This document shows positions 14,490 to 31,955 of a stretch of 33,581 nt of DNA, one piece after another (the first letter of the stretch is position 1; each line of letters starts with the position of its first letter). Location: assembly GCA_023488565.1 (NCBI GenBank), contig JAMDDZ010000086.1, positions 1 to 33,581 of the forward strand, written 5' to 3'. Made by a program: the position numbers and the translations under genes. The DNA is from Bacillota bacterium (lineage in GTDB: Bacteria; Bacillota; Sulfobacillia; Sulfobacillales; Sulfobacillaceae). The notes below the pieces were generated by a model that made no database searches, had not been told where the DNA came from, and worked only from the letters and a program-made list of their open reading frames with translations.

Positions 14490-14549
14490 TGTCGATCCTC
14501 CTCTAGAATATTTCCGGTTTTTAAGGCAATATATTATATACCACTTTAC

Positions 14550-14885
14550 TCAACACATCGTTTCGTCTAGTGTTTCGGGGGTCAGATGCTCGGCTGCACG
14601 TCTGGTGGCCAATTCTTCAAGCGCCGAGCGAATTTCGAAAATCTCCCGCAGGTCTTGCGATGACACTGGAGTGGTGATCGCACCCACGTGGGGAGTAATG
14701 GTGAGTAATCCACTCGAAGCTAATTGGTTGATGGCCTCGCGCACTGGAATCTCACTGGTGCCAAATTCCTGTACAAGTTGCCGAAATTTCAGGCGGTGGC
14801 AAGGTTCATACTGGCGATCTAGGATCTTTTGCTTGACGTGTCGAAAGACGTAGTCTTTTTTAGTTTCAAATTCCAATAGTGGCAT
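14550..14885 (-). CDS. GntR-family (FCD type) transcriptional regulator, truncated
   Basis: Start is the ATG at 14885 (GGGAG site). The 111 residues contain a complete winged helix-turn-helix (YVFRHVKQKILDRQ ... PVREAINQLASSGLLTI) and only the first helix of the FCD ligand-binding domain (DLREIFEIRSALEELATRRA). Family members have about 220-240 residues, so roughly half the protein is missing; the frame ends at TGA and the dioxygenase gene follows 60 bases on. It may be a pseudogene or a constitutively DNA-binding fragment. Confidence 0.75.
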   Translation of the reverse strand: MPLLEFETKKDYVFRHVKQKILDRQYEPCHRLKFRQLVQEFGTSEIPVREAINQLASSGLLTITPHVGAITTPVSSQDLREIFEIRSALEELATRRAAEHLTPETLDETMC

Positions 14886-14909
14886 ATTTGCACTCCCATC
14901 AACGGCTCC

Positions 14910-14922
14910 TGATATAATATCA
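14910..14922. promoter_or_regulatory. Palindrome upstream of the gntR fragment
   Basis: TGATATAATATCA is a perfect 13-base palindrome lying 25 bases before the gntR start and overlapping a possible -10 box. It is a candidate operator for autoregulation, as is usual in the family. Confidence 0.35.
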
Positions 14923-14940
14923 CATTTATTGTTTTTGAAG

Positions 14941-14962
14941 GTTTGCCTTGTCACAGGCAAAC
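14941..14962. repeat. 8-bp inverted repeat (GTTTGCCT ... AGGCAAAC)
   Basis: Arms of 8 bases flank a 6-base spacer, between the flavin reductase stop and the gntR start. There is no T-tract on the minus strand, so an operator or processed hairpin is as likely as a terminator. Confidence 0.45.
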
Positions 14963-15035
14963 GGGATTGGCATATCGATTGGCATTACGGACCATTCCAA
15001 CCCCACTAGCAAAGGGTTGGCATCACGCAATAATT

Positions 15036-15581
15036 TCAGTGGATATCCTTACTGCCTAACGTACTTTCACTGCCGAATGGGGAACGCTCGTGAAAATGCC
15101 CGTATTGGCCCCGATAAAATACCAACGGTTTTTTGGCATGATTGACTTTCATGTCGACTACGCGCCCTATGAATAAGGTATGGTCACCTCCTTCATATTG
15201 CATAGTTTTTTCGCACCAGAGAGCGGCCAAACTTCCTTCAATACTTGGCACCGGACTTTGGGGTATCCTCGATAGCAGGATTCCTGAGATATCGTTTTGA
15301 GGTTTGGAAAAGAGGGAGGAAATTTCTCTTTGGTCATCGGCTAAAATGCATACTGAAAATTGTTGCGAAACTACGAGTTTAGGGTGGGTGTTGGCGATCT
15401 TGGCAATACATACCAGAATTAACGGAGGATCCAGGGACAATGAACTAAATGAATTAACGGTTAACCCGTGAATTTCTCCGTCAACCTCTGTTAAGACGAC
15501 GGTGACTCCGCTTACAAAGGTTCCTAATACCTGCCGAAACTGTTTTTGATCCAGGGGAAAGTACGTGTGGGGGGTACTCAT
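15036..15581 (-). CDS. Flavin reductase domain protein (probable partner of a flavin monooxygenase)
   Basis: Start taken at the ATG at 15581, after GTGAGG. The 181-residue protein has the FMN-binding split-barrel pattern: FRQVLGTFVSGVTVVL, GLTVNSFSSLSLDPPLILV and GGDHTLFIGRVVDM, with PLVFYRGQYG near the end. The family supplies reduced FMN or FAD to two-component monooxygenases. The luciferase-like monooxygenase gene two places upstream is the likely partner. Only 11 bases separate it from the IclR regulator gene. Confidence 0.88.
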   Translation of the reverse strand: MSTPHTYFPLDQKQFRQVLGTFVSGVTVVLTEVDGEIHGLTVNSFSSLSLDPPLILVCIAKIANTHPKLVVSQQFSVCILADDQREISSLFSKPQNDISGILLSRIPQSPVPSIEGSLAALWCEKTMQYEGGDHTLFIGRVVDMKVNHAKKPLVFYRGQYGHFHERSPFGSESTLGSKDIH

Positions 15582-15592
15582 CGTCTGTTGCC

Positions 15593-16333
15593 TCACTTTC
15601 GGTACGCCAAAAGTCTTGACATGGTTGCACAAGTGTTCAGTAGGGTGCGGACCACGGATGAATCGGGATGGGTTTCCAAAGAACCTTGAAAACCCACCAC
15701 CGTCAAAGCGGCTACCAATGTGCCGTTAGAATTCAATACGGGAGCTGACACGGCTGAAAGTCCGGGTAAATATCCTCCTTCGGTGCAACTGTAGCCGATC
15801 TGGCGGACCCGATCACGAACCGTTTCTAATTCCGTTAGATCGAATTGGTCTGTGTGAGCATTGACGGAACACAAGAGAGCCCAATCGGTAAAGGCTGTGA
15901 AGATCTCACCCGTCGCACTTTTTAATAAGGGGAGTACCGTGCCAGCCCGCACGCCAACATTAACCACATTATTCCCTTCCAGCCACTGTACAAAAAACGG
16001 ACCGTGTATACCCCAAATTGCGACGGCCACAGTTTCTCCGGTAGCCCCGCGAAGGGCTACTAGATGCTCCTGGACTATGGTTTGTACACTTAACCGAGCT
16101 GATGCCTCCAAGCCTAGATGAATTAATTCTGACCCTAAGCTCCACCGACCAGCCAGGTCCTTTTGTAAAAAACCAGTTTTTTGCAGGGTGACGAGGTAGC
16201 GGAATAATTGACTTCGCGACATGCCGCACTTCGCGGCAATCGCCGTCATTGTCATAGGAGACGGATGATGTGCTACCGCATTTACAATGGAATACGCGGT
16301 TTCCACGGAATGGATTCCTTCTGATTCAGCCAT
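15593..16333 (-). CDS. IclR-family transcriptional regulator
   Basis: The 246 residues have an N-terminal winged helix (MTMTAIAAKCGMSRSQLFRY, then LVTLQKTGFLQKD) and a C-terminal effector domain with the IclR features GRWSLGSELIHLG, LPLLKSATGEIFTAF and GYLPGLSAVSAPV. Such regulators control aromatic and carboxylic acid catabolism and bind short palindromes near promoters. It lies within the operon between the monooxygenase and flavin reductase genes, 9 bases after the first. The palindromes at 17427-17452 are candidate targets. Confidence 0.92.
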   Translation of the reverse strand: MAESEGIHSVETAYSIVNAVAHHPSPMTMTAIAAKCGMSRSQLFRYLVTLQKTGFLQKDLAGRWSLGSELIHLGLEASARLSVQTIVQEHLVALRGATGETVAVAIWGIHGPFFVQWLEGNNVVNVGVRAGTVLPLLKSATGEIFTAFTDWALLCSVNAHTDQFDLTELETVRDRVRQIGYSCTEGGYLPGLSAVSAPVLNSNGTLVAALTVVGFQGSLETHPDSSVVRTLLNTCATMSRLLAYRK

Positions 16334-16342
16334 GGGTTGAAT

Positions 16343-17401
16343 TTACTCCTCGTTAAAGTGAGGTAAAATATATTTGGCGACGTTTTCCATTGAGGTAACC
16401 GTCTCCCGGTGACTTAACCCACCAAAATTTAGGTAGAGAATCACTTCGTCAACCCCAGCCGCCTCTGCCTTTTTGAGTGCCGTGACGCAGGTTTCCGGAT
16501 CACCCACAATAATCGTCTGGTCGCTTAAATCTGTGGTCTGCATTGCTTTTAGTTTTTCGACGATATCGACGAAATAGCGAATGTGAGGGGGTGCGGTGGT
16601 GGGATCCGATGGGAAGGCTGGGAGTATCCCGTGAAAGTATTTCATCATCCGTTGTTTGGTCTTTTCTTCTTCGGATTTGTTTTCTACCACGTTGAGGAAA
16701 TATGATATTTTTGTCTTTTTGTTCAAAAAGCCATGAGCTTGTGATTCTGTTTGAAAGGTCTCAACTGCCTTAGCGACGCTACCGAATACCATACTGGCGG
16801 CAAATGGTGCAAAAATGACGTTTTCTCCCATTTCTGCAGCTTTTTTAATAGTAGGGCCACTGAATGCTGCCAGATAAATCGGAGGATAGGGATGTTGCAC
16901 AGGTCGAGGTACGATAGTAGTTTCGGGGATGTGGTAGAAACTTCCTGAATGGGAATACGTGGAATTGGTCCACAAACCTTTGATTATTTCCAATTGCTCA
17001 AAAAAAATGTTCCGACTTTGTTCAAAATTTGTCTCAAAGACATCGTATTCTCGCTTGTCATAGCCTCGGCCGGCGGAAAATATGGCACGCCCATCACTCA
17101 AAACGTCAAGCAAGGCAAATTCCTCAGCCATACGAACGGGGTGGTTAACGGGGAGGAGCACGGTGGCCGGAGCTAGCCGTAGACGTTTAGTACGGGCAGC
17201 GACATATGCGAGCAGTAGTGATGGTGAGGGAAGCACTCCAAGTAACGCAAAATGGTGCTCTGGCACCCAAAACGAGTGAAATCCTAGTTCTTCAGCTAAC
17301 ACTCCTTGTTCTGCCAACTGCTTGACCATGAGGTTTGGGTCTTGACGCGAGCTGCCATAGGCTGGAGGATTGTCGGTTAAGGTGAAGAATCCGATTTTCA
17401 T
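16343..17401 (-). CDS. LLM-class flavin-dependent monooxygenase (bacterial luciferase family)
   Basis: The second ATG (17401) is chosen because AAAGG lies 9 bases ahead of it; the ATG at 17410 has no room. About 352 residues form the luciferase-like TIM barrel: MKIGFFTLTD at the N-terminus, LGFHSFWVPEHHF, RLRLAPATVLLPVNHPVRMA, DGRAIFSAGRGYD and IVGDPETC. Enzymes of this family use FMNH2 and O2 to oxidise organic substrates; the substrate is not readable here. It is first in an operon with an IclR regulator, a flavin reductase and a gentisate dioxygenase, so ring hydroxylation or a similar oxidation leading to gentisate is an inference. Confidence 0.88.
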   Translation of the reverse strand: MKIGFFTLTDNPPAYGSSRQDPNLMVKQLAEQGVLAEELGFHSFWVPEHHFALLGVLPSPSLLLAYVAARTKRLRLAPATVLLPVNHPVRMAEEFALLDVLSDGRAIFSAGRGYDKREYDVFETNFEQSRNIFFEQLEIIKGLWTNSTYSHSGSFYHIPETTIVPRPVQHPYPPIYLAAFSGPTIKKAAEMGENVIFAPFAASMVFGSVAKAVETFQTESQAHGFLNKKTKISYFLNVVENKSEEEKTKQRMMKYFHGILPAFPSDPTTAPPHIRYFVDIVEKLKAMQTTDLSDQTIIVGDPETCVTALKKAEAAGVDEVILYLNFGGLSHRETVTSMENVAKYILPHFNEE

Positions 17402-17426
17402 CACGTTCATCCTTTCACTTATCGTG

Positions 17427-18956: not shown

Positions 18957-18986
18957 TTGACAACGTAACAATGTATTATATATGAT
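18957..18986 (+). promoter_or_regulatory. Promoter of the aromatic-acid operon
   Basis: TTGACA (18957-18962), an 18-base spacer and TATGAT (18981-18986) lie just before the PaaK-type ligase gene. The AT-rich spacer contains ATATATGATATAT-like repeats that could bind the TetR regulator encoded downstream. Confidence 0.65.
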
Positions 18987-19008
18987 ATATTTCAGAGGGG
19001 ATGGTGAC

Positions 19009-20388
19009 ATGAGTATTCCCGAATCGCGGTATTGGAATCACTGGGCAGAAACTTTAAATCGAGAGGCGATCGATGCCTTGCATTTTAAGCGATTGAAATT
19101 GCTGCTGGATTATGCATACACGCGTAGTGCGTTCTATCGTGATTATTGGAAACGTGCAGGATTTCATCCTGATATGGTTCGGTCCCTTGAGGACTTTAAA
19201 AACCGGGTCCCATTAACCGACAAGAAAGACTTTTTGCAACTCCAGGAAGATTTTCCGCCTTATGGACCCACGGTGGCCGTAGGAGAACAAGATATTGCGC
19301 ATCACGCCGAGACATCGGGGTCAACTGGACTCCCGCTGAGAATTCCTTTTACCGATTATGATACCGAGCGTTACGGTGAATCATGGATTTACGGGTGGTG
19401 GGCGTTGGGAATCCGTCCTCAGGACAGCTTCTATTTCGCCTTTAATTGGGGCAACTATGCAGGATTTTGGAGTGCTTATTGGGGTGTGCGGCGTTTCGGG
19501 GCCAAGCTCTATTCGGGTGGCGGTCAAACGACAGAACAGCATGTGCGTAATATTCTTCGCCTCAAGCCAACGGTGCTGATTAGCACGCCGAGTTACGCGT
19601 TAAGGATTTTGGAGGCGGCGGGGCAGATGGGGGTAGATTTAGCGTCCTCTTCCCTTCGGTTCACATACCATGCCGGGGAGCCGGGACCTTGCTCGCTTTC
19701 CTCTGTACGTAAGAAGTTAGATGAAGGATTTGGTGCGATTAGCGGAGAGCTCTTGGGAATCGCTGAGGTGGATGCCGTTGCTCCCGGGTGTCGATTGCGC
19801 CGTGGAGTTCACATGTCGGAGATGTCAAATTTTTCTTGGTCAATGGACCCCGTTTCTGGAAACGAAGTGGGGGATGGCGATATTGGGGAGAATGTGCTGA
19901 CTACTTATGCCAATAGTGCGCAGCCCCTTATCAATTATCGTACCCACGATTTGGTGCGAGCGTTTAACCGTCCGGTTTGCGGATGTGGTTCGACTTGGCG
20001 ATATTTGGATGGAGTGGTCTTAGGCCGCAGTGACTACATGATCACCATTAAAGGAACTAATGTATACCCAGCCGCAGTCGAAAATCTGATAAGTGATGTT
20101 CCCGGGGTCAGCCCTCATTTTCAACTGGTGCTCAGTCGTGAAGGTGCATTCGATAATTTATTAATTCGCATAGAGCCCGAGGCCCACTGGGATGTATCAC
20201 GATGGCAGGGCATCGCTGACGAAGTGGTGCAGCGTATCAAGGATGTGGTCGGTGTTCGACTTAATGCTGAAATTGTTGAAGTCGGAACCTTGCCTAGAAC
20301 GGAATTAAAGGCTAAACGGATCGTAGATACCCGGGAACTTGAATTTCGTCGAGAACTCGACCGGTCAGGGGGGTGGGCACACTCATGA
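19009..20388 (+). CDS. Aryl-CoA ligase, phenylacetate-CoA ligase (PaaK) family
   Basis: The ATG at 19009 follows AGAGGGG; an upstream in-frame ATG would overlap the promoter. The product is 459 residues. The N-terminal YWNHWAETLNREAIDALHFK, LKLLLDYAYTRSAFYRDYW and ETSGSTGLP (ATP-binding loop) are PaaK-like, as are YRTHDLV and GRSDYMITIKGTNVYPAAVE near the C-terminal hinge. The enzyme would activate an aromatic acid to its CoA ester using ATP. It heads a long operon with PaaABC-like genes. The exact acid (phenylacetate, benzoate, anthranilate or a hydroxylated relative) cannot be read from sequence. Confidence 0.9.
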   Translation: MSIPESRYWNHWAETLNREAIDALHFKRLKLLLDYAYTRSAFYRDYWKRAGFHPDMVRSLEDFKNRVPLTDKKDFLQLQEDFPPYGPTVAVGEQDIAHHAETSGSTGLPLRIPFTDYDTERYGESWIYGWWALGIRPQDSFYFAFNWGNYAGFWSAYWGVRRFGAKLYSGGGQTTEQHVRNILRLKPTVLISTPSYALRILEAAGQMGVDLASSSLRFTYHAGEPGPCSLSSVRKKLDEGFGAISGELLGIAEVDAVAPGCRLRRGVHMSEMSNFSWSMDPVSGNEVGDGDIGENVLTTYANSAQPLINYRTHDLVRAFNRPVCGCGSTWRYLDGVVLGRSDYMITIKGTNVYPAAVENLISDVPGVSPHFQLVLSREGAFDNLLIRIEPEAHWDVSRWQGIADEVVQRIKDVVGVRLNAEIVEVGTLPRTELKAKRIVDTRELEFRRELDRSGGWAHS

Positions 20389-20600: not shown

Positions 20601-21433
20601 TGCGCTTAGTGGATACCACCTGGGTTGATCTGGAGTCCGTTTGTCGCGAGACGACGCTTCTAATGATGGTAGTCGGTCCCACGGAACAACATGGGCCGCA
20701 TCTTCCATTAGGCACCGACTTTATGGTGGCTAAAGAAATGGCTCGCCGCATGACACAGGTTGTAGAAGAGGAATGTGGATGGCTCGTCATGGAGGTGCCG
20801 CCAATTTACTATGTTCCTGCTGTCTTGTCGCGCGAGTATCCAGGATCCGTCTCTATTCGGAAAGAACATTATCGCAATTATTTAATGGACGTGATGGAGA
20901 GCTACGCCACTAATGGTTTTTCCCATGGCATTTTGATTTCGACTCACATTGATCCGCCGTTTGTTATAACGACACAATCGGTCCTGATGGAAATCAACCT
21001 TCGTTATGGGACGCGGTATATTCACGGCTACGAGCGATTTCCAATGGAAGATGTCCTCAGTGGTCGGGCGCCGGAAATTTTTGGGTATCAACTGCCCGGT
21101 GATGTACATGCAGGAATATTGGAAACATCATCGATGGCAGTAGCTCGACCAGAACTGGTTGATTGGGCAAGGGCAAAATTACTGGAGGACCAACCCATAG
21201 AGTTTCAGGATTTGGCCAAAACGCAGTCGTTTCTTGAAGTGGGCAATGGACTCGGATATACAGGATATCCGCGGCTAGCGTCGGTAGAATACGGGCAACT
21301 TTGGTATCATCGATATGGTCGAATGCTCAGAGATGTTTTGATAGCGTATTGTCGAGGCGATGATGTGTTCGACCGACTAAGCCTAGACATGTTAGTCAGG
21401 CGATCTGAGGAGTTGGAGGATGCCAAGGAATAA
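20600..21433 (+). CDS. Creatininase-family metal-dependent amidohydrolase
   Basis: The ATG at 20600 overlaps the previous stop, giving 277 residues. GPTEQHGPHLPLGTD carries the Glu, His and Asp metal ligands of the creatininase family, and DVHAGILETS keeps the later His and Glu. The usual NGHGGN motif is replaced by STHIDPP, so it is a divergent member. Family enzymes hydrolyse cyclic amides or peptides (creatinine, formamides, the mycofactocin precursor). In a CoA-ester aromatic cluster its substrate is unclear. Confidence 0.82.
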   Translation: MRLVDTTWVDLESVCRETTLLMMVVGPTEQHGPHLPLGTDFMVAKEMARRMTQVVEEECGWLVMEVPPIYYVPAVLSREYPGSVSIRKEHYRNYLMDVMESYATNGFSHGILISTHIDPPFVITTQSVLMEINLRYGTRYIHGYERFPMEDVLSGRAPEIFGYQLPGDVHAGILETSSMAVARPELVDWARAKLLEDQPIEFQDLAKTQSFLEVGNGLGYTGYPRLASVEYGQLWYHRYGRMLRDVLIAYCRGDDVFDRLSLDMLVRRSEELEDAKE

Positions 21434-22007
21434 AAAGATGGACCGTGATGATTTGCTATCGAAGGCTACGGCGGTGATTCGGAAAAATGGGTATCGGGAA
21501 ACATCGTTAGATGAGTTGGCCAAGGAATTCCACTTTACAAAACCCGCATTGTATTACTATGTGGATTCCAAAGAGGCGCTACTCTATGAGATTTATGAAA
21601 AGACCATCCGTGAGTGGTTGGCGCGCATTCGCCGGATCGCGTCCGACAAGATCCGCAACCCAGAGGAAAAAATTCGTGAGGTAGTGCGACAGTTTATGCA
21701 TCTTTGTGTAGAACATGATGAGATGGCAATTTTTTTTGAAGAAAAGTCATATTTGGCTGATGAACATTTTCAAGCTATCTCCGCGAAAGAACGAGAAGTA
21801 ATCGAGATTATTGCTGGCATCATCGAGGAAGGGATCGCATTGGGAGTAATGAAGCCTGTGCCACCAAAAGTTGTGGCTTACGGTTTGGTCGGAATGACGG
21901 CTTGGAGCTACCGGTGGGTTTCTCTCGAGGGCCCTTTGACTATCGACAGTTTGGCCGATACCTACTACGAAGTAGTGATTGGGGGGTTGTTGCAACAAGG
22001 TCTTTAG
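21420..22007 (+). CDS. TetR-family transcriptional regulator
   Basis: 195 residues, overlapping the previous gene by 14 bases, with GGAGTTGGAGG before the ATG. The helix-turn-helix is TSLDELAKEFHFTKPALYYY followed by VDSKEALLYEI, the standard TetR pattern; the rest is an all-helical ligand domain. TetR repressors that sense acyl- or aryl-CoA esters (PaaR-like) commonly control such clusters. It is encoded in the operon and may act at the promoter near 18957-18986. Confidence 0.92.
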   Translation: MPRNKKMDRDDLLSKATAVIRKNGYRETSLDELAKEFHFTKPALYYYVDSKEALLYEIYEKTIREWLARIRRIASDKIRNPEEKIREVVRQFMHLCVEHDEMAIFFEEKSYLADEHFQAISAKEREVIEIIAGIIEEGIALGVMKPVPPKVVAYGLVGMTAWSYRWVSLEGPLTIDSLADTYYEVVIGGLLQQGL

Positions 22008-22044: not shown

Positions 22045-22983
22045 ATGATATCTACTGACGCATTGATCGAGAAGTTGGATAGTGGTTTTGTCGTGGAGTC
22101 GGAAACAGACATGTCGGAGGACTATAAGCGCCTATTGATTCAAACCCTGACTATTACCGCCGACACCGAGCTTATTAGTATCTTCAGTATTCTAGATGCC
22201 TTGCAATATGTTCCGACCTTGAATCGCCGGATTACCGAGCTGGCGATTGTCCAAGATGAATTGGGTCATGCCCATATTGCCTATCGCCTGTTAAAACTTT
22301 TAGGCGTAGATGTTGATGATCTTATCTATCGGCGTGACGCGAGTGAATTTCGCAATCCCTATCTCATGGATTTGAAGCTCAAAAACTATGCTGAACTTCT
22401 CACGTTACACGCCCTGTTAGACCGTGCCGGGTACGTTTTGCTTGGGGATATTTTCCACCACACGTCATATGGTCCGTGGAAGCGGGCCTTAGTCAAAGTG
22501 GACGCTGAAGAAGGTTTTCACGTCCGCAACGGCGAGTCTGGGATCCGAGCCATGGTTCAGACTGACGAGGGCCGCCGTATGGTTCAAGACGCTGTGGATT
22601 GGATGTTTGTGATGGGCCTTGACTTCTTTGGAATGGCAGATCATTTGAAAAAACGGTCTTTGCAACTCGATCTTCACCTCAAGGGAGAAACCAACGACCA
22701 GATGCGTCAACGATGGATGAAATCCACCATGCAATTTCTCGATTCGATTGAAATTCATGCGCCGGTGCACTGGGATGGTGAACAGCAACAGTATGTCTAC
22801 GATTTTCCCTACCCGTGTGAATGGGATGAAACTGAGCGGCGTTGGAGGTTTGATCGTCCTGTGGAATGGACCGACGTCTTGGCACGGTTCAAGGGACACG
22901 GTCCTTATCGACAGGAATATGTCAAGATGCTGCGCCAAGGGCGCGAGACCTACCTAAAGTTATTGCACGATGAGGTGGTTTGA
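22045..22983 (+). CDS. PaaA-like oxygenase catalytic subunit (phenylacetyl-CoA epoxidase family)
   Basis: AAGGAGGAG precedes the ATG. The 312-residue helical protein shows the di-iron ligands of PaaA: acidic residue in TADTELISIFS, the QDELGHAH motif and DAEEGFHVRNG (E-x2-H types). PaaA with PaaB, PaaC, PaaD and reductase PaaE converts phenylacetyl-CoA to its 1,2-epoxide. Here genes for A, D, B and C relatives follow in that order. Because the cluster continues into gentisate dioxygenase genes, the actual substrate may be another aryl-CoA. Confidence 0.88.
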   Translation: MISTDALIEKLDSGFVVESETDMSEDYKRLLIQTLTITADTELISIFSILDALQYVPTLNRRITELAIVQDELGHAHIAYRLLKLLGVDVDDLIYRRDASEFRNPYLMDLKLKNYAELLTLHALLDRAGYVLLGDIFHHTSYGPWKRALVKVDAEEGFHVRNGESGIRAMVQTDEGRRMVQDAVDWMFVMGLDFFGMADHLKKRSLQLDLHLKGETNDQMRQRWMKSTMQFLDSIEIHAPVHWDGEQQQYVYDFPYPCEWDETERRWRFDRPVEWTDVLARFKGHGPYRQEYVKMLRQGRETYLKLLHDEVV

Positions 22984-22984
22984 C

Positions 22985-23296
22985 GTGGTCACAGAAGAAG
23001 AGGTAAAGAAAGCGCTGGAATCCGTCTGCGATCCAGAAATTCCCATCAGTGTGTGGGATTTGGGCTTAGTGACGGGTATTCAACTTAAAGAAGATGCGAT
23101 TAATGTGCAAATGACCCTCACATCCCTCGGTTGTGGTTGCGTTGACTGGATTGTTGGTGATGTTGAGGAGGCATTACAACGTCTGCCGGGTGTTGCAGCG
23201 GTCCACGTCGAGGTTGTGTGGAATCCCTCCTGGAAGAAAGAGCGGATGACCGCCCGAGGCCGGATGAAGTTAGAAAAATGGGGGGTAAAGTCATGA
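22985..23296 (+). CDS. PaaD-like N-terminal domain protein (DUF59/MIP18 family)
   Basis: The GTG at 22985 is favoured by the GAGGTGG site 6 bases upstream. The 103 residues contain only the DUF59 part of PaaD: VKKALESVCDPEIPISVWDL, GLVTGIQL, MTLTSLGCGC and VHVEVVWNPSW. PaaD is thought to help mature iron centres of the epoxidase. In the usual PaaD a C-terminal cysteine-rich zinc finger follows; here that part appears as a separate gene at 24107-24259. Confidence 0.85.
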   Translation: MVTEEEVKKALESVCDPEIPISVWDLGLVTGIQLKEDAINVQMTLTSLGCGCVDWIVGDVEEALQRLPGVAAVHVEVVWNPSWKKERMTARGRMKLEKWGVKS

Positions 23297-23520
23297 CTCT
23301 ATGGAGGGAAGACGAGTTCGAAGTGATGGCCCAACATCGGCGGGGAGATCCTGTACACGTTATTGGGAGTGTGTGGGCACCCAATTCGATATTGGCCGGC
23401 TTTTATGCCGCGACAACCTATGATGAACAGCGCTGGCATACCTTATACGCGATAAAAAGATCGCAGAAAATACCTGTGATCATTGATGGGCGGACATTAA
23501 TCGGAGAGGAGCGGGTTTAA
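23293..23520 (+). CDS. PaaB-like epoxidase subunit
   Basis: It starts in an ATGA overlap with the PaaD-like gene. The 75 residues match the short PaaB pattern: WREDEFEVMAQHRRGDPVHV, then IGSVWAPNSILAGFYA and a conserved YDEQRW block. PaaB is a small subunit bridging the PaaA-PaaC dimers. The order A-D-B-C differs from the common A-B-C-D-E. Confidence 0.8.
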   Translation: MTLWREDEFEVMAQHRRGDPVHVIGSVWAPNSILAGFYAATTYDEQRWHTLYAIKRSQKIPVIIDGRTLIGEERV

Positions 23521-24116
23521 TGGAACAGGCACCGGTAGGGGTCCGCCCAGCGTTACTAACCTTGTCACGACTAAAGTACTTGATTGGGGAACAGTTGGTT
23601 AAAGTTGGGCCCGTGGCACCCGACCTAGCCGCAGCGATTGCGAGCGTAGCGGTAGCACAAACCAATTATGGTCAAGCGCGCTATTTTTACAATTGGTATA
23701 CCGGAGAAAGTCGAGCCGCGGATACGGAGCTTAAAGTCGACGAAAGTTGGAACAAAGAGACCACTTTGCTGAATTTTAATAAATGGGCCACGTGGCCACA
23801 TTTAATCACGGTAATGTGGTTGGTCGACGAGGCCATATTGACTCTCATCCATGACTGGAGCCGAGAAGACCCTGCGCTTAAGCCGAATTTAGAGAAAGTG
23901 AGGGAGGAACTGACACAAGCCTTACCCTTTACTACCGAATGGGTGCGAATTTTTCTCCAAGATGGACGAGGAGTGGGTCGGGCGTCTGCTGCTGTGGCGG
24001 CCCAATTAGGTCCGCTTCTTACCCAATTCTTGATGAATGCTGGTGCGATGGCTTACTTACCAGAATTTCAGGACCGATGGACCCGCGTGGTTGGGGGGGA
24101 TATTTCGTGGCGGTGA
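23520..24116 (+). CDS. PaaC-like structural subunit of the epoxidase
   Basis: TAATG overlap with the PaaB-like gene. The 198-residue helical protein resembles PaaA-fold structural subunits (ALLTLSRLKYLIGEQL, SVAVAQTNYGQARYFYNWYT, NKWATWPHLITVMWLVDEAI) but lacks the E-x2-H iron motifs, as PaaC does. It is shorter than usual PaaC (about 250 residues). Its role would be to stabilise PaaA. Confidence 0.72.
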   Translation: MEQAPVGVRPALLTLSRLKYLIGEQLVKVGPVAPDLAAAIASVAVAQTNYGQARYFYNWYTGESRAADTELKVDESWNKETTLLNFNKWATWPHLITVMWLVDEAILTLIHDWSREDPALKPNLEKVREELTQALPFTTEWVRIFLQDGRGVGRASAAVAAQLGPLLTQFLMNAGAMAYLPEFQDRWTRVVGGDISWR

Positions 24117-24259
24117 CGTGCCCTTTTTGCCATGCATCCGATACGGCGCAGATCGTCAACTGGGGTTCGCGCCTACTCACCCAACAATGGTGGTGCAATT
24201 CGTGCCAATCCCCATTTGAATGGATTCCCAGTCTAAGTCAGGAGGCCCTTCATGAATGA
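24107..24259 (+). CDS. Small zinc-ribbon protein matching the C-terminal part of PaaD (50 aa)
   Basis: The GTG at 24107 follows GGGGGGA. It overlaps the preceding stop and ends 8 bases into the next gene. VAVTCPFCHASDTAQIVNWG and WWCNSCQSPFEWI supply two CxxC pairs, in the same order as the C-terminal finger of PaaD (CPRCGS ... C..C.PF). It therefore looks like the detached second half of PaaD. Confidence 0.72.
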   Translation: MAVTCPFCHASDTAQIVNWGSRLLTQQWWCNSCQSPFEWIPSLSQEALHE

Positions 24260-24998
24260 ACTTGCCATTGTAACGGGTGGTGGGCGCGGCATTGGAGCGG
24301 CCATCGCTGAGGGGCTCGCCCGCCAGAGTGCCCACGTCATCATTGCTGGAAATATGCCCGAACAGCAAGAGAAGCGGGCAGCCGAATTACGCGGGTTAGG
24401 GTATAGCGCTGATGCGTTAGTCCTCGATATCGCTCAGTTTGATTCCGTTGACGAGATGGCCCAAACAGTTTACTCACGGTGGGGGGCACCGTCCATTCTT
24501 GTCAATAACGTGGGAGCGGACAGCATCAAACCGTTCTTGGAAACGGATGAGGGAGAGTGGTGGGAGACTCTAAATGTTAACCTTCTCGGGGCTATGCGCT
24601 GTTGCCGGGTCGTTGTTCCGCTGATGCAACGACAGCATTATGGTCGGATTATCAATATCAGTTCGGATGCGGGACGCGTGGGAACGAGTGGACAAGTCGC
24701 TTATTCGGCAGCCAAAGCAGGTTTGATTGGGTTTACCAAAGCCTTAGCCCGGGAAATGGTCCAAGAGGGTATCACACTGAATGTTGTTTGTCCCGGTCCT
24801 ACGGACACACCTTTGGTGGAGGAAATTCTTCAAGGCCCGCACCCGAAACTTTACCAAGCGCTAAATCGCGCCATTCCAATGAAGCGTTTTGGCCGGCCAG
24901 CAGAGATGGTACCAGCGGTATTAATGTTCGCCAGCCGCGAGGCTAGCTATATGACCGGGCAAACCGTGAGTGTGAGTGGCGGGCTAACCATGATTTAG
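24252..24998 (+). CDS. Short-chain dehydrogenase/reductase
   Basis: 248 residues with GGAGGCCC before the ATG. The Rossmann motif TGGGRGIG is at residues 8-15, followed by NNVG, INISSDAG and YSAAK (catalytic Ser, Tyr, Lys), then CPGPTDTP. Similar SDRs serve as 3-hydroxyacyl-CoA or cyclic hydroxyacyl-CoA dehydrogenases in aromatic and alicyclic acid breakdown. With the enoyl-CoA hydratase next door it may complete a beta-oxidation-like step. Confidence 0.9.
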   Translation: MNELAIVTGGGRGIGAAIAEGLARQSAHVIIAGNMPEQQEKRAAELRGLGYSADALVLDIAQFDSVDEMAQTVYSRWGAPSILVNNVGADSIKPFLETDEGEWWETLNVNLLGAMRCCRVVVPLMQRQHYGRIINISSDAGRVGTSGQVAYSAAKAGLIGFTKALAREMVQEGITLNVVCPGPTDTPLVEEILQGPHPKLYQALNRAIPMKRFGRPAEMVPAVLMFASREASYMTGQTVSVSGGLTMI

Positions 24999-25044
24999 AA
25001 ATCTTTGTGAGTTTATTGAATCCAGAATGGGGAGAGTGACAACT

Positions 25045-25836
25045 GTGTCGGCAGAGACTACATCAATTTTATTGGAGCACGAAGGTGCAGTGGCAAAATT
25101 TATCCTCAATCGTCCACCGGCTAATGCATTGGATGTGTCGACGAGCAGACTTTTGTGGGAACTAATGGAAAAGGTTGCCCAAGATCGGAGCGTGAAGGTT
25201 GTCGTTATCGAAAGCGCTGCTGAGAAGATCTTTTGTGCAGGCGCGGACGTATCCACCGTTGATGCTCATGACGTGCCACTAATGGATAATTTAGGGAAAA
25301 CATTAAAGGACACATTTCTCTTGATGCGGTCTATGCCGCAAATAGTAATCGCAGCGGTCAACGGCCATTGTTTGGGCGGCGGCTTGGAACTGGCTCTTGC
25401 TGCCGACTTTCGTATAGCTAAAGATGGGCCGTCAAAATGGGGCCTCCCAGAGATCAATTTAGGACTGTTTCCGGGTGGGGGAGCGGTTGCGATGATGAGT
25501 CGGTTGGTTGGTTCACAAAGAGCCTTTCGTCTGGCGCTGTTAGGTCAGAGCATCTCAGTGCAACAGGCTTTCTCATGGGGATTAGTGGATGAATTAGTTG
25601 AAGCTGAGAAATTTTCCGAGAGCGTCGACACAATGGCCAAGCAAATTGTTCAAGCGCCATTTGAGGCCGTCACAGATTTGAAGCAAGCAGTGTGGCGAGG
25701 AATAGAAATGCCGCTTTCAGCGGCCTTTGACTTTGAACGAGTGATGCATCGCGACCTGGTTCTAACCTCGGATTGCTACGAAGGTGTGAAAGCCTTTAAA
25801 GAACGGCGAGTTCCCGAGTTTGGAAAGGAAGGATAA
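25045..25836 (+). CDS. Enoyl-CoA hydratase/isomerase family protein
   Basis: The GTG at 25045 is chosen from the GGGGAGAG site 7 bases upstream; the ATG at 25027 has no site. The 263-residue crotonase has NRPPANALD, the oxyanion loop FCAGADV, NGHCLGGGLELALA and WGLPEINLGLFPGGG. Both catalytic glutamate positions are therefore kept. It would hydrate, isomerise or open a CoA-bound ring product. The specific step cannot be told from sequence, as PaaF, PaaG and ring-opening hydratases share this fold. Confidence 0.9.
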   Translation: MSAETTSILLEHEGAVAKFILNRPPANALDVSTSRLLWELMEKVAQDRSVKVVVIESAAEKIFCAGADVSTVDAHDVPLMDNLGKTLKDTFLLMRSMPQIVIAAVNGHCLGGGLELALAADFRIAKDGPSKWGLPEINLGLFPGGGAVAMMSRLVGSQRAFRLALLGQSISVQQAFSWGLVDELVEAEKFSESVDTMAKQIVQAPFEAVTDLKQAVWRGIEMPLSAAFDFERVMHRDLVLTSDCYEGVKAFKERRVPEFGKEG

Positions 25837-25840
25837 CGCG

Positions 25841-26708
25841 ATGAAAGTCGCCGTGTTTAACGACTCGCGTATCGGTGTTGTTCAAAACGATAAGATCATT
25901 GATGTGACAGATACCTGTCCTTACTACGCGTCTACTTGGCCGCCGACCTTTATGTTGTCGTTTATCGAGCACTTTGACACACTGCGCCCGCAAATCGAGG
26001 AGTTAGTGGAGGAGCAAGCTGTCACCGTCCCCCTCAATCAAGCTATACTTCATCCTCCCATTCCCATTCCCACGAAGATCTTGGCGGCACCCGTCAATTA
26101 TCGCTTGCATCAAGAGGAGATGACGGTGAAGGGTGCGGTGTATGAGGGTATGGCGCTGCACACCATTGAGCAATATGGAGTTTTTTTAAAACCGCCTTCT
26201 TCGTTGATTGGGTCAGGGGGAAGGGTGGAACTTCCCTTCCCAGACCGAAGGACAGATCATGAAGGAGAAGTGGGGGTTGTAATTGGGAAAAAGGACGTAA
26301 TATCCCGCGAGACAAGGCTAAGGATTATATCTTTGGCTACACCGGCGTGATGGACATCACAGTTCGCGGTTACGAAGACCGCACTTACCGGAAGGGATTT
26401 GACTCCGTGTGGTAACCAAAGATGAGCTGGTGTGTGAAGAGGATATTTCTTTCGAACTAACGGTCGATGGGATCACTCGGCAAAAATCCACTACCCGCCA
26501 ATTGATTTTTGATATACCTCGCCTAATTGAATTAGCGTCCTTTCAAATGACTCTCTACCCGGGAGACATCATCTCCACTGGCACTCCAGATGGCATGGGT
26601 CCTATCGTCCCGGGAAATGTGGTTAGCCTCACCGTAGAAGGGATTGGTACGTTAAGTGTGACAGTGGCCCATGCTCATCCGGGGACACGACGGGGACTGG
26701 GGAACTAA
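25841..26708 (+). pseudogene. Fumarylacetoacetate hydrolase family gene with two frameshifts
   Basis: The ATG at 25841 has AAGGAAGG as site. The frame runs through ILAAPVNYRLHQEEM and a HEGEVGVVIGKK block, both typical of FAH proteins. Near 26313 it slips. The correct continuation (KDYIFGYTGVMDITVRGYED) is one frame away and hits a stop at about 26413. A third piece in another frame begins VVTKDEL and ends with PGDIISTGTPDGMGP. The usual TPLGPW-like link is also missing near 26405. FAH-family hydrolases include fumarylpyruvate hydrolase of the gentisate route. As it stands the product would be truncated at residue 169. Confidence 0.85.
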
Positions 26709-26772
26709 GATCCCATATTTGGATATAAAAAAGGGAAACAAAGCCAGAAGGTAAAGAAAGGGATGAAAAGTT

Positions 26773-28308
26773 ATGAGTGTCCAATGGGCGTTTGCTGCTG
26801 CATGCGACCGTACGCCCAATCGTCCGGCCGTTGTAGAAGGTTCGGTTCAGTGGTCATATCATGAATTGTACCAACGGACCTTGGCCACGGCTCAAGCACT
26901 GCATGCAGGGGGGCTAAGACCCGGAGATCGCATCTTGGTAGGACTGCGGAACACCAAGGAGCACGTCGCCTTATTTCTTGCAACCCAATTGAGTGGGATA
27001 GTGTACGTGCCGATTAACTTTCGTGTCCATCCTCATTCGGTGAGATATTTTTGGGACTATGTAGGGACTAGCTGTGCGGTTATGGAATCTGACCTTATCC
27101 AAGGGCTCCTCGGAGCTGACCCTTTATGGCGTGAGGTCGAAGCGGCGGGACGACTATGGCCAGGTGATAATCGCTTATGGGATCGGGTTGCGTCGGCGGC
27201 ATCCTCTTCGTCCTCATTGACCGAGGTGAAAGATGGGGATTTGTCGATGGTACTCTTTACCTCTGGCACTACTGGTAATCCGAAAGGGATTCCCTTGACG
27301 CATCAGAACGTGGTGGCGCGCACTATGGGACCTTCTTTAAATTGGGGCTGCCCGCATGACGGTCAAGAGCATGTCATTGGACTCATGCCGCTTTATCACA
27401 CCATTGGGTTACAAGGTTGCTTATTGTATGCGTTATTGCTTAATAATACCTATTACGCGGTCCCCCAATTTTTACCCAAAAGTACATTAGACTTGATTCA
27501 GACAGTGGGTATTACGCATCTCTTCGGTACTCCTACCCACTTATATGCACTTGCTACAGAACCGTCAGTTGCATCTTATGATATGTCCTCATTATCCCAC
27601 GTGCTCTATGGGGGAGCTCCGATGAGCCCCCATGTCATTAAACAATGTGCGAAAGTATTGTGCCCCCGGATTACGTATGTATATGGGAACACAGAAACCT
27701 ACAATGCCTTATTTCATCGGGAAGCTCCGCGAACCTTGGAACAATCGCACACTGGCGTTTACCATCGCGTGCGCGTGGTGGCGATCGGCGGGGGGCCAGA
27801 TGACCTAGTGGCGGTCGGCCAAGAGGGCGAGCTTATTATCGATACCCGCTCGCCGGAATCATTTCAAGGTTACTGGAATTTACCTGAAAAAACCCGAGAA
27901 CGTGTTCGTGAGGGATGGTATTTTACTGGGGATAGCTGCCGATTCGAAGGAGAGAATGAGTTTCATGTGACGGGTCGCGTTGATGACATGATTATTAGCG
28001 GAGCGGAGAATATCCAACCGGTGACGGTAGAAAATGCTCTCTTAGGGCATCCGGATATTTTGGATGTAGCGGTCGCAGGCGTACCGGACGAACGGTGGGG
28101 ACAGGTGGTTAAGGCTTACGTCGTAAGCCGTTCAGACACATTGACTGCCTATGACATTGACCAATGGGTCAAGAACTGCTCGACGTTGGATCCCTATATG
28201 CGTCCACGACAATACCTCTTTTGTCACGAGATTCCGCGCAATCCGAGTGGAAAGATCTTGCGTCAATCTCTCGCAACATTAAAGGAGCAAACCATAGGGA
28301 GGTCTTAG
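26773..28308 (+). CDS. AMP-dependent acyl/aryl-CoA synthetase
   Basis: This 511-residue ANL-superfamily ligase has LFTSGTTGNPKG (ATP loop), PLYHTIGLQG, YGNTET, YFTGD, GRVDDMIISGAENI and a C-terminal PRNPSGKI with the catalytic Lys. It joins a carboxylic acid to CoA via an acyl-adenylate. It is the second CoA ligase in the operon, besides the PaaK-type enzyme, so it may act on a different intermediate. The ribosome site (AAAGGG) is rather far from the ATG at 26773. Confidence 0.9.
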   Translation: MSVQWAFAAACDRTPNRPAVVEGSVQWSYHELYQRTLATAQALHAGGLRPGDRILVGLRNTKEHVALFLATQLSGIVYVPINFRVHPHSVRYFWDYVGTSCAVMESDLIQGLLGADPLWREVEAAGRLWPGDNRLWDRVASAASSSSSLTEVKDGDLSMVLFTSGTTGNPKGIPLTHQNVVARTMGPSLNWGCPHDGQEHVIGLMPLYHTIGLQGCLLYALLLNNTYYAVPQFLPKSTLDLIQTVGITHLFGTPTHLYALATEPSVASYDMSSLSHVLYGGAPMSPHVIKQCAKVLCPRITYVYGNTETYNALFHREAPRTLEQSHTGVYHRVRVVAIGGGPDDLVAVGQEGELIIDTRSPESFQGYWNLPEKTRERVREGWYFTGDSCRFEGENEFHVTGRVDDMIISGAENIQPVTVENALLGHPDILDVAVAGVPDERWGQVVKAYVVSRSDTLTAYDIDQWVKNCSTLDPYMRPRQYLFCHEIPRNPSGKILRQSLATLKEQTIGRS

Positions 28309-28311
28309 CCA

Positions 28312-29361
28312 GTGAGCCAGGAGGATTACTACCAGGACGTACGGGAGCACCATTTGGAACCGCTTTGGACGATTGGTGACTGGTTTTTATCCAACGAACC
28401 CTTGAGAGTGTACCGTCCCTATCAATGGCATTGGAGTGACGTCTATCCGCGGTTGATGGCGGCGGCCGACCATATGGTGCCAGGTCAGGGGGGAGCGCGT
28501 CGTGTCCTAGTCTATGCGCACCCGGACCTAACCCAAACGCTCGGGACTACACATACCTTAAACGTCGCCATGCAGATGATTTTGCCCGGTGAAGAAGCCC
28601 CGGCCCATCGGCATACACCGTTAGCGATTCGTTTTATCATCACTGGTCAAGGAGCCTCGACCACCGTGAATGGCGAACGGATGGCGATGGGATCCGGCGA
28701 CTTTCTGGTGACACCGCGCTGGGCTTGGCACGACCATCGCCACGAAGGAGAGGGCCCGATGGTTTGGATGGATGGGTTAGATATTCCTCTGACACGATGG
28801 ATGGGGGGAATGTTCGTGGAGCCGTATTCCGCATCTATGCAAGAGGAAAGTGTGCCGTCGCAACAATCCGCCAAGGTGTTCGGCACAGCCGGTATTTATC
28901 CAAAGGTCAGTGAAGACTTCAAGACCGCGAATGGCTCGCTAATGGTCTATCCATGGGAAGCTACTCGAAAAGCGTTGGAAGCGGTTCGTGAAGTCGCTCT
29001 TAATCCCTTTGACGGAGCCATCGTAGAATATCGCAATCCGCGATCCGGCGGTCCAGTTTTGCCGAGCCTGGGTGCGACGATGCAATCCCTGCAACCGAGG
29101 GAGACCACGAAAACGCATCGTCATACCTCAAGTGTGGCTTATTATGTCTTTCGAGGAGAGGGTTGCACAGACATTGACGGCCAGATGTATGACTGGAGTC
29201 AAGGGGACGTAATCGTGATTCCACCATGGCATTGGCATCGGCATCGCAATATGTCCTCCACCCAAGAGGCGCTGCTGTTTGCAATAAACGATGAGCCGGT
29301 AATGCAAAACTTGGGACTTTACCGAGAGGAGGGTTTGCCGAGTGAACGTGACGCGGACTAA
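28312..29361 (+). CDS. Gentisate 1,2-dioxygenase family bicupin (copy 2)
   Basis: GTG start after AGGGAGG, 3 bases from the synthetase stop. The 349-residue protein parallels copy 1 at 13440-14489 along its length: APAHRHTPLAIRFI, TVNGERMAMGSGDF and TPRWAWHDH in cupin 1, THRHTSSVAYYVF and PPWHWHRHRN in cupin 2. Predicted to cleave gentisate or a relative to maleylpyruvate-type products with Fe(II) and O2. Its place between CoA-ester genes is unusual, because ring cleavage here would need the free acid. Confidence 0.88.
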   Translation: MSQEDYYQDVREHHLEPLWTIGDWFLSNEPLRVYRPYQWHWSDVYPRLMAAADHMVPGQGGARRVLVYAHPDLTQTLGTTHTLNVAMQMILPGEEAPAHRHTPLAIRFIITGQGASTTVNGERMAMGSGDFLVTPRWAWHDHRHEGEGPMVWMDGLDIPLTRWMGGMFVEPYSASMQEESVPSQQSAKVFGTAGIYPKVSEDFKTANGSLMVYPWEATRKALEAVREVALNPFDGAIVEYRNPRSGGPVLPSLGATMQSLQPRETTKTHRHTSSVAYYVFRGEGCTDIDGQMYDWSQGDVIVIPPWHWHRHRNMSSTQEALLFAINDEPVMQNLGLYREEGLPSERDAD

Positions 29362-30571
29362 GGAGTGCCAAAGGGCAGCAGGACCTCTTGAGGGTGTCAC
29401 GGTTGTTGAACTGGGGAGTCTGATTGCGGGACCGTTTGCGACGCGCTTATTAGGGGATTATGGGGCGCGGGTGATTAAGGTGGAGGCACCTGATGCCCTG
29501 GACCCGATGCGGGACTGGGGACACGTCACGTATCGCGATCGGCACTTATGGTGGCTGACCCAAGCTCGGAATAAAGAACTCATTACTTTGAATCTTCGCA
29601 CGCGCAAGGGCCAAGACCTGTTTCGGCAATTGGTGCCGCATATCGATATCGTGGTCGAGAATTTTCGGCCCGGCACGCTTGAAAAATGGGAACTTGCCTG
29701 GGAAACCTTACACGCGTTGAACCCACGGCTGATACTGGTCCGCGTTTCTGGATTTGGGCAAACAGGTCCCTATCGCGAGAGAACCGGATTTGGTTCGGTG
29801 GCAGAAGCCATGGGAGGGCTTAGGTATTTGAATGGGTTTCCGGACCGCCCGCCAACCCGCTTTGGCATTTCCCTGGGGGATTCTTTGGGCTCGTTGTATG
29901 CAGTAATTGGAGCTCTTGCGGCTATCCATGCCCGGGAGAAGACAGGGGAGGGGCAGATGGTGGATTGCGCAATAACCGAAGCCGTGTTCAGCCTCTTGGA
30001 AAGTGCGGTCTCCGAATATGGATTAACTGGGTATGTGCGGGAACGGCAAGGCAATATTCTGCCGGGAATTGCACCGTCGAATACCTACCGAACTAAAGAT
30101 GATCAATATCTAGTCATTGGAGCCAATCAAGACCGCGTCTTTCAGAGACTCACAGAGGTCATGGGAGCACCGAACTTGGCGTCTGATCCAATGTATCAGA
30201 CGCATCAGGCACGGGCCACGCACCAAATGGAGTTGGACCGGATTATTGAATCATGGACAACTCAACACACGCTTGAAGAACTGGCTGCCTGGTTACATGA
30301 GGCTGGAATTCCAGCTGGCCCAATTTATTCCATCGAAGACATCTTTTCCGATCCTCAATTTCGAGCTCGAGAAATGATCTTGCAACAGGAAGCACCTTCT
30401 CTCGGATCTGTCCCGACGCCGGGAATCGTGCCTAAATTTTCTGGGACGCCAGGACAAATCCGGCATTTGGCTCGTGAGCATCCTGGCCAGGACAATCATC
30501 GGGTGTATAGTGAATGGCTGAATCTCTCCGACCGGGATTTGCGAGATTTAGAAGAGGACGGAGTGATTTAA
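29342..30571 (+). CDS. Class III CoA transferase (CaiB/BaiF family)
   Basis: GTG start inside the end of the dioxygenase gene (20-base overlap), with GAGGAGGG as site. The 409-residue protein has GVTVVELGSLIAGPFATRLL, DYGARVIKVEAP, ENFRPGTLEKW, VSGFGQTGPY and the catalytic Asp in GISLGDSLGSL, all hallmarks of the family. It moves CoA between acids, for example succinyl-CoA to a dicarboxylate. The adjacent HMG-CoA-lyase-type gene suggests its CoA ester product is cleaved next. Confidence 0.93.
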   Translation: MNVTRTKECQRAAGPLEGVTVVELGSLIAGPFATRLLGDYGARVIKVEAPDALDPMRDWGHVTYRDRHLWWLTQARNKELITLNLRTRKGQDLFRQLVPHIDIVVENFRPGTLEKWELAWETLHALNPRLILVRVSGFGQTGPYRERTGFGSVAEAMGGLRYLNGFPDRPPTRFGISLGDSLGSLYAVIGALAAIHAREKTGEGQMVDCAITEAVFSLLESAVSEYGLTGYVRERQGNILPGIAPSNTYRTKDDQYLVIGANQDRVFQRLTEVMGAPNLASDPMYQTHQARATHQMELDRIIESWTTQHTLEELAAWLHEAGIPAGPIYSIEDIFSDPQFRAREMILQQEAPSLGSVPTPGIVPKFSGTPGQIRHLAREHPGQDNHRVYSEWLNLSDRDLRDLEEDGVI

Positions 30572-30588
30572 TGGAGGGAGGAAAGGAC

Positions 30589-31476
30589 ATGGAGTCCGGA
30601 CAAGTTACGTTGGTGGATGTAACATTAAGGGATGGGTTACAAGACCAACCTCGGGTTGTCTCGACTGAGGATAAGGTGATGTTGGCAGAACTCTTGGTTC
30701 AAGCGGGATATAGGGAACTCGAAGTAACCTCTTTCATGCGTCCGGATTGGATTCCACAAACGGCGGATGCCGAAAGGGTTCTGAAAGGGTTTTCCTCAAG
30801 GCCAGGAGTTCAACGACATGTGCTGGTGCCTAACCGCCGCGGGCTAGATCGGGCGCTGACGACGGATGCGGAGGTGTTAACGTTTGTAATATCCGCAAGC
30901 ACCGCACACAATCAACGAAATCTCAATCGCACAACGGACGAGAGTTTGGCTCAGGTTGCTCCATTAATTGAGGAGGCTAAGAGAGCCGGAAAATGGGTGC
31001 GGGGAACGGTGTCGACTGCTTTTGGCTGTACAATCCAAGGCCCGATTGCGCCAAACGCCGTGTGGATGGTTGTTGATCGCTATCTCGAGGCTGGAGTCGA
31101 TCAGGTATGTCTTGCCGATACCGTCGGGTTAGCGACGCCAAAGGGTTTTAACGAAGTGATGGAGAGGGTGTTGGATGGCCTGTCCCCCGGGATGCTAGGC
31201 CTACACCTTCATGAAGGTGCTGCGGTCTCGATTTTAACCATTGTTCAGCAGGCGCTCGACATGGGCTTACGGGTTTTCGATAGTGCGATTGCAGGGTTGG
31301 GCGGCTGTCCTTTTGCCCCCGGTGCAAAAGGCAATCTTAAGGCTGAACGGTTGATTCCATATCTTGAAGCTCGCGGATTTGCCACCGGTATAGACTCGGG
31401 GCAGTTACCGACCATTGCATTAACGCTGGGGATGGCTTTAGGCGATGGACCTCTAGTGACACGCCGTACGTCCTAA
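30589..31476 (+). CDS. Hydroxymethylglutaryl-CoA lyase family protein
   Basis: The ATG at 30589 is used because GGGAGG lies 7 bases upstream; the ATG at 30571 lacks a site. 295 residues. DVTLRDGLQDQP, LEVTSFMRPDWIPQ, GCTIQGPIAPN, LADTVGLATP and GLGGCPFAPGAKGN are the metal-binding and cysteine-loop motifs of HMG-CoA lyases. The enzyme would cleave a 3-hydroxy-dicarboxyl-CoA into acetyl-CoA and a keto acid. In this family (R)-citramalyl-CoA lyases also occur, and the neighbouring CaiB transferase fits that pairing. It is the last gene of the operon. Confidence 0.9.
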   Translation: MESGQVTLVDVTLRDGLQDQPRVVSTEDKVMLAELLVQAGYRELEVTSFMRPDWIPQTADAERVLKGFSSRPGVQRHVLVPNRRGLDRALTTDAEVLTFVISASTAHNQRNLNRTTDESLAQVAPLIEEAKRAGKWVRGTVSTAFGCTIQGPIAPNAVWMVVDRYLEAGVDQVCLADTVGLATPKGFNEVMERVLDGLSPGMLGLHLHEGAAVSILTIVQQALDMGLRVFDSAIAGLGGCPFAPGAKGNLKAERLIPYLEARGFATGIDSGQLPTIALTLGMALGDGPLVTRRTS

Positions 31477-31699: not shown

Positions 31700-31774
31700 T
31701 GGTGGGCACGACAGGTATCGAACCTGTGACCTCTTGCGTGTGAAGCAAGCGCTCTACCACTGAGCTACGCGCCC
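31700..31774 (-). tRNA. tRNA-Val (anticodon CAC)
   Basis: Full cloverleaf on the minus strand: acceptor GGGCGCG/CGTGCCC, D-arm with AGCTCAGTGGTAGAGC, anticodon stem CTTGC/GCAAG with loop TTCACAC, TTCGATA T-loop and encoded CCA. An apparent protein reading across it on the minus strand is an artefact of tRNA sequence. Confidence 0.95.
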
Positions 31775-31796
31775 ATTTTGGTTTGCGGTACACGGC

Positions 31797-31871
31797 TGGT
31801 GGGCCCAGAAGGATTCGAACCTCCGACCAACCGGTTATGAGCCGGCAGCTCTACCGCTGAGCTATGGGCCC
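31797..31871 (-). tRNA. tRNA with CAT anticodon (Met or Ile2)
   Basis: Acceptor GGGCCCA/TGGGCCC, anticodon stem GCCGG/CCGGT with loop CTCATAA, TTCGAAT T-loop, CCA encoded. A CAT anticodon can serve as elongator Met or, after lysidine modification, as Ile2; sequence alone does not settle it. The paired first acceptor base argues against initiator fMet. Confidence 0.93.
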
Positions 31872-31879
31872 AAAAATAA

Positions 31880-31955
31880 TGGCTCCTCGAGCAGGACTCG
31901 AACCTGCAACCACCCGGTTAACAGCCGGGTGCTCTACCAATTGAGCTATCGAGGA
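31880..31955 (-). tRNA. tRNA-Asn (anticodon GTT)
   Basis: Acceptor TCCTCGA/TCGAGGA, anticodon stem CCCGG/CCGGG with loop CTGTTAA, TTCGAGT T-loop, discriminator G and encoded CCA. It is the first gene of the three-tRNA operon. Confidence 0.95.

Follow-up and report, generated by a model that had tools for sequence, protein, structure and literature searches.

A PaaABC-type gene set with PaaD in two genes: a separate and widespread family of putative aryl-CoA oxygenases

The DNA analyzed here, a contig of 33,581 nucleotides from a presumably acid-loving bacterium of the Sulfobacillaceae (called the window below), carries a compact set of genes related to those of phenylacetyl-CoA epoxidase, with PaaD divided between two genes and PaaE missing. 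Does this set encode a rearranged phenylacetyl-CoA epoxidase or, as the original prediction proposed, a distinct family of aryl-CoA oxygenases? The source genome comprises 1.85 Mb and is 71.5% complete, and its nearest named relatives in a scan of species genomes are Sulfobacillus. On the forward strand at 22045-24259, five genes follow one another directly or overlap:

22045-22983, + strand: PaaA-like catalytic subunit of a di-iron oxygenase, 312 aa (PF05138, 179 bits; cut-off 28.5)
22985-23296, + strand: N-terminal half of PaaD as a stand-alone DUF59 (SufT-like) protein (PF01883, 65 bits; cut-off 23.5)
23293-23520, + strand: short PaaB-like subunit, 75 aa (PF06243 alone weak, E 0.04; profile matches solved PaaB)
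23520-24116, + strand: short PaaC-like structural subunit, 198 aa (PF05138, 25.5 bits, just below the cut-off of 28.5)
24107-24259, + strand: C-terminal half of PaaD as a stand-alone CxxC...CxxC zinc ribbon, 50 aa, GTG start (PF23451 Zn_ribbon_PaaD, 45 bits; cut-off 27)

Homologues of PaaA, PaaB, and PaaC are thus encoded together with the parts of PaaD, which places the set among PaaABC-type di-iron aryl-CoA oxygenases at the superfamily level. The PaaA-like protein has all of the di-iron ligands (E42, E72, H75, D126, E156, and H159); its AlphaFold model (pLDDT 94) finds PaaA as the best PDB matches in Foldseek, and its score against the equivalog model TIGR02156 is 130 bits, below the cut-off of 280. 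For the PaaC model (pLDDT 90), the nine top Foldseek matches are all PaaC. A PaaB profile built from 22 relatives has the solved PaaB 4iit_B as its top match (E 1e-4) and also matches 3egr_A (E 3e-4). PaaA, with its complete ligand set, is likely the catalytic subunit, with PaaC as its structural partner and PaaB as a bridge. The start of the DUF59 gene is ambiguous, either GTG at 22985 or ATG at 22970, and start-to-stop overlaps run from PaaA into a dehydrogenase gene beginning at 24252, the one between PaaA and DUF59 existing only with the ATG start. Relative to two Sulfobacillus relatives, pN/pS is 0.13-0.52 across the five genes, and all five are therefore under purifying selection.

Among 84,980 species genomes scanned, 80 loci have a relative of this PaaA (40-84% identity); they are distributed over Bacillota, Chloroflexota, Actinomycetota, Acidobacteriota, Bipolaricaulota, Armatimonadota, and haloarchaea. 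Using iterated profiles, we found the exact order PaaA, DUF59, PaaB, PaaC, zinc ribbon in 65 of the 67 untruncated loci, representing Bacillota, Chloroflexota, Actinomycetota, Acidobacteriota, Bipolaricaulota, and haloarchaea. The predicted arrangement, with the halves of PaaD flanking the PaaB and PaaC genes, is therefore neither due to chance nor local. A conserved two-gene state describes PaaD here more aptly than a break at this locus, and the halves are shown to be conserved as separate predicted proteins, with the CxxC...CxxC motif of the zinc ribbon in 72 of 72 relatives. The idea of a single fused gene broken by an assembly or frameshift artefact draws on the one broken gene in the window, that of an FAH-type hydrolase, but it is refuted to near certainty by halves that flank two other genes and recur in this order in unrelated assemblies.

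PaaC was also described as short. A length of about 200-222 aa is typical of the Bacillota members, and PaaC is mostly of normal length in the other relatives. In most of the non-Bacillota relatives, as well as in L086, L055, and L046, PaaC keeps residues resembling the ligands of PaaA (E, H, D, E, and H). Lys takes the place of the first Glu in 48 of 51 sequences, and Sulfobacillus PaaC has lost most of the ligand-like residues. PaaC could conceivably hold a second metal site.

Neither the divided PaaD nor the missing PaaE would alone show a separate family, so that support for one rests elsewhere. PaaD is also encoded by two genes, with a separate zinc ribbon, in haloarchaeal phenylacetate operons (NF041868 PaaD; NF041869, the zinc ribbon of PaaD, for which the NCBI name is "PaaE"). 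These operons differ from the split-type sets in having the order A-B-C-D-zinc ribbon, an adjoining PaaK in one locus, and a PaaA of the canonical clade that retains Lys68 in both of the loci whose motif was read. Moreover, the proteins of the window miss the cut-offs of both models (89 bits against 180 for NF041868; 27 bits against 100 for NF041869).

The absence of PaaE from the operon was predicted correctly, and no PaaE-like protein was found elsewhere in the 71.5%-complete genome of the window. Genome-wide searches of G000, G015, and G022 were negative, and none of the about 80 loci has a full PaaE near the split-type set; the haloarchaeal loci have only a stand-alone ferredoxin. Because canonical PaaABCD sets of Sulfobacillus also have no PaaE close by, and the genomes G015 and G022 encode none at all, its absence was dropped as a marker of the family. 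In all haloarchaeal members examined (L065, L067, L068, L074, L090, L092, L109, L110, and L125), the stand-alone ferredoxin is of the plant [2Fe-2S] type, and its gene lies immediately upstream of PaaA on the opposite strand; this protein may be the donor of the haloarchaeal sets. A search for plant-type ferredoxin in genomes G061 and G064 gave no match.

The evidence for a separate family comes from the phylogeny of PaaA, its active site, and the co-occurrence of both types of set. In a tree including canonical PaaA proteins of E. coli, Sulfobacillus, and haloarchaea, from which L008_can (a wrongly extracted frame) and L026 (a long-branch row) were left out, the split-type proteins are set apart from the canonical ones by a branch supported at 100/100. 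When the three Sulfobacillus members of the family were forced to group with canonical PaaA of Sulfobacillus, the tree was 189 log-likelihood units worse and was rejected by the AU test (p 5e-39), as was the same grouping with E. coli PaaA added (p 2e-14). Placing this trio with all canonical PaaA proteins was not rejected (p 0.25), which, as the tree is unrooted, only allows the trio to be the earliest branch of the split family. Relatives from L065, L074, and L035 score 129-143 bits against TIGR02156, compared with its cut-off of 280.

All six di-iron ligands are invariant in the 81 split-type PaaA sequences. By contrast, the Lys68/Glu49 lysine bridge described for canonical PaaA (PMC4498308) occurs in all 20 canonical sequences and in none of the 81 split-type ones. 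Residue 108 is Phe in 77 of the 81, Leu in L026, and Met in the three Sulfobacillus members only, to which Ile49 is also confined. The family thus offers a natural loss of the bridge with the di-iron site intact, and hence a way to test the role of the bridge; E. coli PaaA with the substitutions E49Q and K68Q was crystallized with benzoyl-CoA previously (PDB 4ii4). We consider it almost certain, from these comparisons, that the split-type set constitutes a family separate from the canonical PaaA enzymes. Our literature search among open-access PMC papers found no paper describing this widespread family and no assayed member, and it is apparently undescribed.

Comparison with phenylacetyl-CoA 1,2-epoxidase PaaABC(D)E of E. 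coli (PDB 3pw1 and 4iit) delimits what is shared: homologous PaaA, PaaB, and PaaC, the same folds of PaaA and PaaC, the six di-iron ligands, the DUF59 and zinc-ribbon parts of PaaD, and a CoA-thioester context. The split-type sets differ in a PaaA that is only about 24-31% identical and belongs to another clade without the lysine bridge, in the gene order, in having two genes for PaaD and none for PaaE, and in a shortened PaaB, as well as a shortened PaaC in Bacillota.

Could the set nevertheless be a diverged but otherwise ordinary phenylacetyl-CoA epoxidase with rearranged genes, serving the standard phenylacetate pathway? Genes for a PaaX-like regulator, PaaH-like and PaaJ-like proteins, PaaY, and aldehyde dehydrogenases occur near several members, a PaaK-like ligase is encoded near the set of the window, and in some genomes the split-type set is alone. 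However, at least seven genomes contain a canonical set beside the split-type one (four named Bacillota, G015 and G022 of the Sulfobacillus family, and the haloarchaeon G108), so the latter is not simply the phenylacetate enzyme. The PaaA scores of half the TIGR02156 cut-off, the complete loss of the lysine bridge, and linked ligases that are mostly of the benzoate type rather than PaaK also argue against an ordinary epoxidase, which we regard as improbable.

Indications of the substrate come from neighboring genes. Of 25 linked AMP-forming CoA ligases, scanned at those of the 81 loci that have such a ligase nearby, 20 match the benzoate-CoA ligase family TIGR02262 (E 1e-112 or better), a subfamily model that may take in other aryl-acid ligases. 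L035 also encodes PaaX (241 bits against 264), a 3-oxoadipyl-CoA thiolase near its cut-off (586 bits against 597), PaaH-like halves, and an aldehyde dehydrogenase. No BoxB above the TIGR03225 cut-off was found in 17 genomes carrying a split-type set. From these results, the family is probably an aryl-CoA oxygenase, acting mainly on benzoyl-CoA. As the main substrate, benzoyl-CoA is slightly favored by the neighboring genes. The predicted distinct family of aryl-CoA oxygenases thus gains support from phylogeny, active-site residues, gene order, co-occurring canonical sets, and linked ligases. The best explanation overall, for and against which the chances appear evenly balanced, would be a separate family of PaaABC-type di-iron monooxygenases that act on the ring of an aromatic CoA thioester.

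Two further observations concern the neighborhoods of these loci. A crotonase gene is present twice in L035 (4033-4824 and 15484-16275), the copies being nearly identical over the 110 residues shown. Two genes of the CoA-transferase family (PF01144, IpdA/IpdB-like) lie near the set in 8-9 loci, including L035, L038, L043, and L067.

In the usual route of the family, a linked benzoate-CoA ligase would form benzoyl-CoA, which the oxygenase would convert to an epoxide, and crotonases, an aldehyde dehydrogenase, and 3-oxoadipyl-CoA thiolase would process the product. The DUF59 protein and the zinc ribbon may mature or load the metal center, a role that has been proposed for PaaD. Electrons would be supplied by an unlinked ferredoxin or flavodoxin, not by PaaE. 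Such a reaction would resemble that of BoxAB, the benzoyl-CoA 2,3-epoxidase, in being a di-iron aryl-CoA epoxidation, with benzoyl-CoA the likely substrate in most of the relatives. BoxB differs in consisting of one chain of about 480 residues that has no PaaB or PaaC partners, and the predicted fold of the PaaA of the window matches it weakly (Foldseek E 6e-5).

Models that cover the split-type genes are named after phenylacetate degradation. If the encoded enzymes oxidize benzoyl-CoA, they become candidates for the aerobic degradation of benzoate in large groups that have no BoxB, among them thermophiles, acidophiles, and haloarchaea. Bacillus stearothermophilus PK1 reportedly breaks down benzoate through benzoyl-CoA and gentisate. 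Haloferax sp. D1227 degrades benzoate via gentisate, and the available passages of the paper in question do not name the ring-oxidizing enzyme (PMC4005966). A broader reading, to which we assign a little less than an even chance, is that the family provides another ring oxygenase at the level of benzoyl-CoA, beside BoxAB, in Bacillota, Chloroflexota, Rubrobacter-type Actinomycetota, and haloarchaea without BoxB. It would use a donor other than PaaE and might supply the missing ring-oxidizing step in, for example, Haloferax sp. D1227. In this reading, the Sulfobacillus branch would be derived and act on another aryl-CoA.

The genes around the set in the window bear on this branch:

18982-20388, + strand: PaaK-like aryl-CoA ligase (TIGR02155, 236 bits against 646; PF14535, 82 bits)
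21420-22007, + strand: TetR-like regulator upstream of the set (open reading frame judged by eye; kept in L032 and L033)
24252-24998, + strand: SDR dehydrogenase, its gene overlapping that of the zinc ribbon (top NCBIfam match BadH, 241 bits against 431)
25027-25836, + strand: enzyme of the enoyl-CoA hydratase/isomerase (crotonase) family (PF00378, 196 bits)
25841-26709, + strand: gene of the fumarylacetoacetate/fumarylpyruvate hydrolase (FAH-type) family, frame broken by in-frame stops
26773-28308, + strand: AMP-forming acyl-CoA ligase outside the benzoate-CoA ligase family (PRK06187, 336 bits; no TIGR02262 match at E 1e-85)
28312-29361, + strand: gentisate-type ring-cleavage dioxygenase (TIGR02272, 285 bits against 442; NF049978, 310 against 650)

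The AMP-forming ligases of the window, L033, and L026 are not of the benzoate type, nor is the PaaK-like ligase of the window, which is conserved next to the set in L032 and L033. An SDR gene is also located beside or near PaaA in L026 and L058, and in the window its product could possibly catalyze the step after oxygenation. The best PDB match of the dioxygenase is the gentisate dioxygenase 3bu7. The frame of the FAH-type gene breaks near 26330-26410, through either an assembly error or a recent mutation; the copy in L032 is intact (PF01557, 173 bits). Because of the other ligase, Met in place of Phe108, and the downstream dehydrogenase and gentisate-type dioxygenase, the substrate of the Sulfobacillus branch probably differs from that of the rest of the family.

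In the window, one of the two linked ligases would make another aryl-CoA, into which the oxygenase would insert oxygen. The overlapping SDR would restore an aromatic hydroxylated product, and this would be released as the acid, cleaved by the gentisate-type dioxygenase, and passed to the FAH-type hydrolase. With the dioxygenase below its family cut-off and the FAH-type gene broken in the assembly, we propose this gentisate-directed route only tentatively.

Alternatively, the enzyme of this lineage might not be a benzoyl-CoA epoxidase but a hydroxylase of salicylyl-CoA or hydroxybenzoyl-CoA that forms gentisyl-CoA in a single step. The location of the gentisate-type dioxygenase and the FAH-type hydrolase within the same gene run is consistent with this, as are the non-benzoate ligase and the restriction of Met at pocket residue 108 to Sulfobacillus. 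One-step hydroxylation would, however, leave the overlapping SDR without an obvious role, no thioesterase was identified, and the low score of the dioxygenase weighs here as well; we thus consider it unlikely, although less so than an ordinary phenylacetyl-CoA epoxidase.

The gene run that includes the proposed route of oxygenation, SDR action, and ring cleavage closes at 29342-31476 with a CaiB-family CoA transferase and a gene of the HMG-CoA-lyase family (287 bits against 246). A separate aromatic-acid cluster on the - strand at 13440-17410 encodes another gentisate dioxygenase (TIGR02272, 410 bits against 442), GntR-like and IclR-like regulators (by eye), a flavin reductase, and a luciferase-like monooxygenase. 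The - strand of the window also has a match to group II intron D1-D4 at 1242-1405 and three tRNA genes (Val, Met, and Asn) at 31700-31955.
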